A stretch of 64,000 nucleotides of DNA from contig NZ_AP025739.1 of assembly GCF_003574315.2 (NCBI RefSeq), positions 5,704,001 to 5,768,000 on the forward strand. Direction: 5' to 3'. Source of the stretch: Capsulimonas corticalis (GTDB lineage: Bacteria > Armatimonadota > Armatimonadia > Armatimonadales > Capsulimonadaceae). A program made the translations under genes and the position numbers. The notes under the pieces are model-generated. The model saw only the letters and a list, made by a program, of their open reading frames with translations. It was not told the origin of the DNA and did not search any database. Below are positions 16,170 through 19,021 of this stretch, in pieces. Positions within the stretch are counted from its first letter, which is position 1. Every line of letters begins with the position of its first letter.

Positions 16170-17675
16170 TTGACCGAAGCGCCTGCGAATCTTCGCGTGG
16201 ATCGTCCGCTCCACTTTCTGATCGCCCTGTTCGTTCTGGAGATCGTTGCGTTCGCGCTCCTTCAATACGGCGTTCCGACGGGGCTTCAATCGCTTTGGGC
16301 AACCGGTAAGCTGGACACGCTCCCGTTCGCGACGGCGTTGTTCGGTCACGCCGTACGGCCGCTAACGCCTGGCGCCTTTCGCATCGCCTTTCGCGTGCTT
16401 CTCGTGGCGCTGTACGCCGTCTACGCCGCGATTTTACTGCGCCTGAGCGCCAATTCTTCCATCACACCCCGGCGAGCTCTCACCATTGTGATCGTCACGG
16501 GCGCGGCCATCGCAATTCTCTTTCCCGCATCTCTTTCATCGGATTTGTACTCGTATGTCGCTTATGCAAAGCTGCCTGGATATCACCTCAACCCCTACTT
16601 CCATTCTCCGCGGGTTTTGATTGACGCCGGGGATCCGATGGCCGGGTTCCTGCCGCGATCGATACGCGATCCTTCGAAACATCGCATCGCCTGGGATATC
16701 CCCACCGTCTATGGACCTGTCTGGACAGCGCTTTCCATCGGGGTCGTGAGAATGATCGGGGCTTCCCAACTGTGGCTGGCCCTGCTCGGCATGAAGCTGA
16801 TTGAGCTGGGCGCTTTGATGGTCGCATCCATGAGCGCGGGACGGATTACGCGGCGTCAATATCCTGACCGGATCGGAGCGGCGATTCTCACCATAGGCCT
16901 GAATCCCCTCGCATTGATTGAGGGTGTCGGCTCCGGACATAACGACCTGCTGATGATCGCGTTCGCTCTTCTGGCCGCCGCATTGCTCCAGGAGCGAAAA
17001 CCATTGCTGGGCGGACTGGCGCTGGGGGTGTCGATTGGGGTGAAGTTTGTAACCCTTGCCCTCTTGCCGTGGCTGCTGATCGATCTGTGGAAGTCATCTC
17101 AGCCGAAAATGGCCCGGGTATCGGCAATGGCGGCGTTCTGCGCCGGCGCCGCTGCGCCCGTCATTCTTTGTTTTGCGCCGTTTTGGCATGGGCTCGCAAC
17201 GCTGGGAGCGCTCGCGAACCGCAATCAAGTGATCCAGAAAGCCGGCGCTTCGGCGACTGATGCTTCTCACGGCTTACATCACGGCGTTCTTTTCTCAGCT
17301 TTGCATGAACATCAAACGATCTTGATCCTATATGCGGCGCTGACAATTGCCGTGGCCCTCTTTCGAATCCGCGACGGCTGGGTTTGGGCATGGACAATCT
17401 TTTCGTCAGCTTTCATCTACTATTCGATGGGCATCTGGTTCCCCTGGTATCTGCTTTGGCCGTGGCTTGTGATGCTCGCCTGCGGGGCGCGAACGCCGGG
17501 GCGCGCCGTCATTGCCTTTGCCATCGGCGCCGTGGCGCTGACGCTGACGACATTTTACACCATCGCCTCTGGAGCATACGCCCTGCGGCTTTTAGAGGCC
17601 GTCTTCTACCTTTGCGCCGCAGGCTCCGGCCTCTATTTCATCGGGATTCTTCGGCGGCGCAGGGTAGCGGAATGA
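16170..17675 (+). CDS. Mannosyltransferase-like polytopic membrane protein (MptA/MptB/GT87-like)
   Basis: 501 residues from a TTG at 16170, chosen because TAGGAG (16156-16161) lies 8 bases upstream. The longer frame from 16095 overlaps the previous gene. About twelve membrane helices. The first large loop carries ASLSSDLYSYVAYAKLPGYHLNPYFHSP, with the SSDLYSY pattern of polyprenol-phosphate mannose-dependent alpha-mannosyltransferases, followed by YGPVWTALS and NPLALIEGVGSGHNDLLM. It closes the four-gene cluster; the Tad pilin leader begins about 190 bases later. Predicted to transfer a hexose from a lipid carrier outside the cytoplasm. Confidence 0.72.
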   Translation: MTEAPANLRVDRPLHFLIALFVLEIVAFALLQYGVPTGLQSLWATGKLDTLPFATALFGHAVRPLTPGAFRIAFRVLLVALYAVYAAILLRLSANSSITPRRALTIVIVTGAAIAILFPASLSSDLYSYVAYAKLPGYHLNPYFHSPRVLIDAGDPMAGFLPRSIRDPSKHRIAWDIPTVYGPVWTALSIGVVRMIGASQLWLALLGMKLIELGALMVASMSAGRITRRQYPDRIGAAILTIGLNPLALIEGVGSGHNDLLMIAFALLAAALLQERKPLLGGLALGVSIGVKFVTLALLPWLLIDLWKSSQPKMARVSAMAAFCAGAAAPVILCFAPFWHGLATLGALANRNQVIQKAGASATDASHGLHHGVLFSALHEHQTILILYAALTIAVALFRIRDGWVWAWTIFSSAFIYYSMGIWFPWYLLWPWLVMLACGARTPGRAVIAFAIGAVALTLTTFYTIASGAYALRLLEAVFYLCAAGSGLYFIGILRRRRVAE

Positions 17676-18099
17676 CCATAGGACAATAGTGGGATTTTCA
17701 AAAATTCCTTCTTTTCTCAGTCGAATTGTCACGCAGGATGCGAAATATTAACCGTATATTAACCAAGCAGACAGCAACTTCGGACGCAGTGTTGACCTTC
17801 AAAACTCAGCGAAAAAAAAATTAGCAAAAATACTGAGAAAAATGTGCGGATTAAGCAAATAGGCTGTATAATGAACTCGGCAGGGGAAAGAGAGCGAAGC
17901 GAGCAGACACCAAGTTTGTAAGCAGACTTCCGTCCACCAGACTGGATATTTATCCCTCTGTTCGCCATTCTCATTTTCGCCAGCCGGTACTTTTACGGTT
18001 GGCAAAGCCGAACCGCCGAAATTTGACGGTTTGGAGTTCGCAACAATATCCCTTAAGGGATTAGACAAAAAAGCCCAAGGGCTAAGGAGTTTCGTTCAA
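17676..18099 (+). promoter_or_regulatory. Promoter region and long structured leader of the first Flp pilin gene
   Basis: 424 bases without a gene. ATATTAACC occurs twice, at 17745-17753 and 17756-17764 (11-bp offset), in an AT-rich stretch. TATAAT lies at 17867-17872. This predicts a leader of about 220 bases. Within it are a hairpin at 17979-18003 (8-bp stem), a second at 18008-18034 (8-bp stem), the palindrome ATCCCTTAAGGGAT at 18048-18061 and a small AGCC/GGCT hairpin next to AAGGAG (18084-18089). The fold matches no riboswitch class I can name with confidence. Confidence 0.5.
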
Positions 18100-18285
18100 A
18101 TGATCAGCACCCTGAAGACTGTCACCAGCAAGTTCATCCGCGAAGAAGATGGCGCGACCATGGTCGAGTACGTCCTGCTCGTCGCTCTGATCGGCGTTAT
18201 CGCGATCGGCGCTATGAAGTTCCTCGGATCCTCCGCGGGCAACAAGCTGAACGTCGTCTCCGGCAACGTTACCTCCAGCAACTAA
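18100..18285 (+). CDS. Flp/Fap-type (type IVb) pilin 1
   Basis: 61 residues from the ATG at 18100, which follows AAGGAG (18084-18089). Features are a short basic leader, then EEDGATMVEYVLLVALIGVIAIGAM, the Flp pilin signature with Glu-Tyr in the helix, and a short Ser/Asn-rich tail. The Tad prepilin peptidase is expected to cleave before the hydrophobic helix, just after the acidic segment. Probably the major fibre subunit: it is first in the locus and has the long leader. A strong hairpin at 18303-18338 follows, which suggests that most transcripts end here. Confidence 0.93.
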   Translation: MISTLKTVTSKFIREEDGATMVEYVLLVALIGVIAIGAMKFLGSSAGNKLNVVSGNVTSSN

Positions 18286-18302: not shown

Positions 18303-18338
18303 CCTTCAGCCTCTCTTTACCAAAAGAGAGGCTGAAGG
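18303..18338 (+). terminator. Strong hairpin after pilin 1
   Basis: Perfect 16-bp stem (18303-18318 and 18323-18338) with loop ACCA. No long T tract follows (CATAATTTC), so it may be a partial terminator or a message stabiliser that sets a high pilin-to-assembly-protein ratio. Confidence 0.7.
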
Positions 18339-18425: not shown

Positions 18426-18608
18426 ATGCAATCCACCAAACAAATCGCTCTGAAGTTCATTCGCGAAGAAGATGGCGCGACCATGGTCGAGTACGTCCTG
18501 CTCGTCGCTCTGATCGGCGTTATCGCGATCGGCGCTATGAAGTTCCTCGGATCCTCCGCAGGCAACAAGCTGAACAAAGTCGCCGGCAACGTCACATCAA
18601 GCAATTAA
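18426..18608 (+). CDS. Flp/Fap-type pilin 2
   Basis: 60 residues, same architecture as pilin 1. DNA from 18462 to 18559 is identical, base for base, to 18139-18236 of pilin 1, while the leader peptide and the 3' end differ. This implies a very recent duplication or ongoing gene conversion. The ribosome binding site is weaker than that of pilin 1. Function: alternative or minor subunit of the Tad pilus, or a second copy for dosage. Confidence 0.92.
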   Translation: MQSTKQIALKFIREEDGATMVEYVLLVALIGVIAIGAMKFLGSSAGNKLNKVAGNVTSSN

Positions 18609-18676
18609 ACCGGCATGGTTTGCTGTTGAACGAATTTATTTAGCACTGCTCAGACATGGATATCGGAGATATTAAG

Positions 18677-18865
18677 ATGACGTCCCTCAACTCGTTTGTA
18701 ATGGAATTAGCAAGCAATGAAGATGGGGCGGTTGTCGTGGAATACGTCTTTCTTCTCATCTTCATCGTGATGGTCGCCCTCGGCGCGATCAAAACGTTCG
18801 GCGGCTCCGTCGTGAACAAGATGGGCGATAACAACAACAGCGTGTCCAGCGCATTCGGTCCGTAG
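18677..18865 (+). CDS. Flp/Fap-type pilin 3 (divergent)
   Basis: 62 residues from ATG 18677, with GGAG about 10 bases upstream; ATG 18656 is an alternative start. The pattern NEDGAVVVEYVFLLIFIVMVALGAI is that of Flp pilins. The helix and the tail (NKMGDNNNSVSSAFGP) differ clearly from pilins 1 and 2. A terminator follows at 18876-18911. Likely a minor pilin or a pilin for another condition. Confidence 0.85.
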   Translation: MTSLNSFVMELASNEDGAVVVEYVFLLIFIVMVALGAIKTFGGSVVNKMGDNNNSVSSAFGP

Positions 18866-18875
18866 TCATACTTTC

Positions 18876-18911
18876 AAAGCCGCCGGATCCGTAAAGGATT
18901 ACGGCGGTTTT
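18876..18911 (+). terminator. Rho-independent terminator after pilin 3
   Basis: AAAGCCGCCG (18876-18885) pairs with CGGCGGTTTT (18902-18911), with an inner GATCC/GGATT extension. It ends in a TTTT run and separates the pilins from the tadE unit. Confidence 0.75.
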
Positions 18912-19021
18912 GATGGTATGACCCTGATTGAAAAACTTTTAGATAGGGTACTATCGTTCAGTTCTTGTCGTTCGCCGCATTTTGCGGCTCTCCTTGCTTA
19001 CCTGCTAGAAAGAGAATATTC

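Follow-up and report, generated by a model that had tools for sequence, protein, structure and literature searches.

The gene of the Flp pilin flp1 is preceded by a leader whose predicted folding is significant and sense-biased. We consider it quite possible, although short of probable, that this stretch is a structured 5' UTR, specific to the lineage, which stabilises or tunes the abundant flp1 pilin mRNA. The predicted transcript (17879–18099) folds with −72.5 kcal/mol and z −3.77, and none of 500 shuffles was as good. The reverse complement of the same region yields z −1.6, and the AT-rich DNA 5' of the promoter is not folded beyond chance (z 0.17). In the folding model the significant structure is therefore sense-biased and begins where transcription is predicted to begin, as it would for a transcribed, selected RNA; this is not proof. 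The preliminary description of a structured but unassigned leader 5' of the major Flp pilin gene agrees with these results, with the Tad cluster located 3' of the leader and with the absence of any Rfam family from it.

Locus and promoter

The window, that is, the whole 64-kb stretch of DNA analysed, comprises positions 5704001–5768000 of the single contig C1 of a 7.65-Mb genome. The intergenic gap upstream of flp1 is 424 nt long and follows a GT87 glycosyltransferase gene ending at 17675. The leader is followed by flp1, flp2, a divergent third pilin gene and genes for TadE, a TadE/G-like protein, prepilin peptidase, RcpC/CpaB and secretin, which by their sequences form a Flp/Tad pilus cluster. 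The third pilin had no match in the Pfam search. The near-duplicated parts of flp1 and flp2 are 18130–18285 and 18453–18608; the leader itself is present once and was not copied. An antisense 89-aa open reading frame had no match in NCBIfam. Candidate upstream reading frames of the leader, namely one 16-codon ATG frame overlapping the −10 box and TTG frames lacking an evident Shine-Dalgarno (SD) sequence, were rejected. The features of the locus are listed in Table 1.

Table 1. Features of the flp1 leader and its surroundings (positions in the window).
Feature	Position	Strand	Score or basis
Two copies of ATATTAACC, weak candidate for a regulator site 5' of the promoter	17745–17764	+	sequence
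TATAAT, presumed −10 box of the flp1 promoter	17867–17872	+	sequence
Branched 5' domain: four-way junction with three small hairpins, at the end of a long imperfect arm	17879–17985	+	folding z
Hairpin 1, 8 bp including one G-U	17979–18003	+	−13.7 kcal/mol
Hairpin 2, 8 bp including one G-U, plus 3 inner pairs	18008–18034	+	−11.1 kcal/mol; pair probability 0.99
Perfect 14-nt palindrome ATCCCTTAAGGGAT	18048–18061	+	−5.0 kcal/mol; single occurrence in genome
Small hairpin AGCC-CAAG-GGCT, then SD AAGGAG	18072–18089	+	sequence
flp1, Flp/Fap pilin, 61 aa	18100–18285	+	PF04964, 34.2 bits
Hairpin of 16 perfect base pairs in the flp1–flp2 gap, no good U-run	18303–18338	+	−27.9 kcal/mol
flp2, near-duplicate of flp1	18426–18608	+	PF04964, 36.2 bits; 94% over 156 nt
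flp3-like divergent pilin	18656–18865	+	38% identity to flp1, E 9.8e-7
Very long hairpin between flp3 and tadE	18865–18922	+	−39.4 kcal/mol

Since no −35 box is recognisable at a spacing of 15–19 bp from the TATAAT (at best two of six positions match), the flp1 start site is a predicted one. The sequence GCTGTATAATGAACTCGGCAGGG in the TATAAT region aligns with the −10 and start region of one flp promoter of the family-mate G004 (TTGACA-17-TATAAT); with 19 identities and an uncorrected p of 0.02 at one of 32 loci tested, this apparent similarity is weak. Farther upstream, the copies of ATATTAACC start at 17745 and 17756, and the pair occurs once in the whole genome; a 9-mer repeat as close as this one arises in 2.5% of shuffles. 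Both the TATAAT and the direct repeat with an 11-bp offset had been noted in the preliminary description and are present. The leader of about 220 nt that it deduced from the TATAAT fits the onset of folding at the predicted start, while the start itself stays provisional given the missing −35 box.

Folding of the leader

The 107-nt branched 5' domain, absent from the preliminary description, yields z −4.38 on the forward strand, a value reached by none of 500 shuffles, and z −2.55 on the reverse strand. Its closing helix, which extends through 17979–17985, competes with hairpin 1. The inner arms of hairpins 1 and 2 may pair with each other as well, an alternative also absent from that description. 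Taken together, hairpins 1 and 2 have z −4.34 (0 of 500 shuffles) and share the arm CGGTT(T)GG; the folding energies and this z-score bear out the two consecutive 8-bp hairpins described earlier. The palindrome and the small hairpin next to the ribosome binding site are also present as reported, the latter with AGCCCAAGGGCT (18073–18084) abutting the SD (18084–18089), but the folding of the 64 nt that contain them (18036–18099) is not significant for RNA (z −1.24).

The palindrome, being perfect as DNA and weak as RNA, is what a DNA-level explanation would start from. By this explanation, dimeric regulators would bind, close to the promoter, to the palindrome and the two hairpin sequences; the arm common to both hairpins and the helical-turn spacing of the ATATTAACC repeat upstream are in line with it. 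However, both hairpins contain G-U pairs and the sense strand folds better than the antisense one. Moreover, neither the palindrome nor the repeat recurs in the 7.6-Mb genome, and hence no regulon is seen. We regard this explanation as quite unlikely.

As a background, the 64 kb was scored in 200-nt windows, 256 in all, with a mean z of −0.31 (sd 1.25); six of them reached z ≤ −3. Two of the three strongest-folding windows sit on hairpins of the flp operon. The strongest of all is 2251–2450 (z −6.5). The hairpin after flp1 has a local z of about −9; neither this hairpin nor the one after flp3 has a clear U-run.

Riboswitch and thermosensor searches

The Infernal search against Rfam proposed in the preliminary description, which had hinted at a riboswitch, was run and matched no family on the sense strand of the leader even at E 10 (261 nt) or E 5 (2 kb). 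At gathering and permissive thresholds, the window and the flp loci of relatives gave nothing for the leader. Matches to msr and CRISPR-DR17 were antisense and at chance level, and were rejected. Membership in the c-di-GMP-I family (GEMM-I, RF01051) was defined by a covariance-model score above the gathering threshold, 35 bits; the leader was undetected at every threshold applied. This absence is informative because the family is detected in the same genome (three hits, two of them scoring 70 bits) and in 173 of the 291 genomes of the phylum. The leader has a GGCAAAGCC-like stretch, and its likeness to the c-di-GMP-I aptamer is limited to these letters, as had been suspected: the fold differs.

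Riboswitches act through an expression platform, either a terminator or sequestration of the SD. No terminator-like site was found within the leader, and its SD is predicted to be mostly open. An RNA thermosensor occludes the SD in the cold and opens it when warm, whereas here the predicted openness between 10 and 45 °C shows no trend, being 0.73–0.75 in the model extended to 18140 and 0.56–0.63 in that extended to 18180. A thermosensor, the other function hinted at earlier, is thus not supported by these predictions.

When the model ends at the start codon, two states are close in energy (−72.5 and −71.1 kcal/mol) and hairpin 1 has a probability of 0.45; once it is opened, its loop ACUUUU (17989–17994) can pair with the SD. 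The near-isoenergetic states, along with the aptamer-like branched domain 5' of a competing helix, are what an undescribed riboswitch-like RNA sensing a ligand or a protein might display, the 5' domain competing with hairpin 1 and the opened loop pairing with the SD. Yet with coding sequence in the model hairpin 1 forms with a probability of 0.98–1.0 (0.99 with 40 nt) and the SD is open; the anti-SD helix, short and containing two G-U pairs, becomes minor. The switch between the loop and the SD depends on where the model ends, and we give it little weight. Further, Rfam has no match, and none of the genomes searched has a homologue, which is unusual for a riboswitch. Such a sensing RNA is improbable, and its more specific version, a lineage-restricted RNA in which a ligand or a protein would set the pairing of the hairpin 1 loop with the pilin SD via competition with the four-way junction, is highly improbable.

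The literature search retrieved no paper linking Flp pilins, or Armatimonadetes, with riboswitches. Two c-di-GMP-I sites were observed in other contexts. At L050, an flp locus from another part of the phylum, a c-di-GMP-I-GGC aptamer lies 1.4 kb upstream, with a GGDEF-like open reading frame (by eye) in between. In the genome studied (G000), an aptamer at C1:1535704–1535824 (L065) is located just 5' of a 102-aa open reading frame, FlgM-like by eye.

Comparison with relatives

A DNA search among 60 relatives yielded no homologue of the leader, its two matches being no longer than 30 bases, and two single-sequence covariance models yielded none in the 19 genomes of the order. A covariance-model match in G005 (E 0.17) was located inside a long open reading frame and was rejected. 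The search for a repeat family in the own genome recovered the leader alone. Of the genomes of the order, only G002, G004 and G006 have flp genes close to flp1; the genus-mate G001, represented by a 69%-complete assembly, has neither an flp match nor a close match to the tad secretin.

The flp leaders of family-mates are unlike that of the window: they are roughly 80–90 nt long and have sigma-54-like or consensus sigma-70 promoters. In G002 and G006 a sigma-54-like site TGGCATRAATTATGCA is located 103 nt upstream of the flp ATG, and sigma-54 genes are found throughout the family. In G004 the promoter is TTGACA-17-TATAAT, with the −10 box about 80–85 nt upstream of the ATG. Elsewhere in the phylum, flp leaders are mostly without unusual structure. 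Given these mostly ordinary leaders and the short ones of family-mates, Flp pilins do not in general require a structured leader.

Two groups of relatives' leaders have common elements of their own. Three flp genes from two family-mates (L004, L005, L013) share TGGCATRAATTATGCA and a conserved leader GCAGCAAGCAGGAACGCTGCCGGTC, unlike that of the window. On contig C274 of G004 (L067; L010, L012), both flp genes have TTGACA-17-TATAAT and a hairpin with the conserved loop GGAAGACAGCA, the stems differing, by eye, by an A-U to G-U change.

The comparison bears on the main rival of a structured 5' UTR, namely that the folding is incidental to a long, loosely constrained intergenic leader having no role of its own. 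The leader is conserved in no relative searched, family-mates manage without one, and some unrelated windows of the 64 kb fold equally well. Against this rival stand two distinct domains, both of them significant and sense-biased, and a start of folding at the predicted promoter; we consider incidental folding rather unlikely.

Discussion

With no match to a known riboswitch, no visible switch and no relative for comparison, an ordinary folded leader is the reading we favour, and a stabilising or tuning 5' UTR assisted by 3' hairpins seems the most economical account of the models. The flp1 mRNA would be transcribed from the TATAAT at 17867 with a leader of about 220 nt (17879–18099), folding into the branched 5' domain and the two stable hairpins and leaving the SD mostly open. 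This structure would protect the 5' end of this abundant and very short mRNA against decay while keeping the ribosome site accessible. On the 3' side, the hairpins after flp1 and flp3 may limit decay or read-through, so that pilin would be produced in larger amounts than the products of the assembly genes. Stabilising 5' UTRs have stable structure near the 5' end of the mRNA, and such structure is found here (z −3.8 for the leader, −4.4 for the 5' domain) provided that transcription starts at about 17879.

The 5' UTR of E. coli ompA carries a stabilising stem-loop. The ompA mRNA is a classic stable mRNA, and stem-loops in the 5' UTR stabilise the recA and vacA mRNAs (PMC7509114). The flp1 leader resembles those of E. 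coli ompA, A. baumannii recA and H. pylori vacA in having stable stem-loops before an open SD; it differs in that its structure is a predicted one and its architecture is not homologous. Its resemblance to c-di-GMP-I, a family present in both genome and phylum, extends to the GGCAAAGCC-like letters, whereas the family model does not detect it, the fold is mismatched and an expression platform is lacking. Kram et al. reportedly described, in 2008, a 'termination cascade' in the tad locus of Aggregatibacter. The window likewise has predicted hairpins 3' of early pilin genes in a tad operon, but these have no clear U-runs.

At present the flp1 leader is a plausible, ordinary candidate. Confirmation would make it a structured leader that controls the output of Flp pilin in a phylum that has been little studied; c-di-GMP riboswitches are common there, yet none was found adjoining flp in this family. 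It would then point to a pilin dosage set partly by RNA structure in this organism, while its family-mates rely on different promoters.
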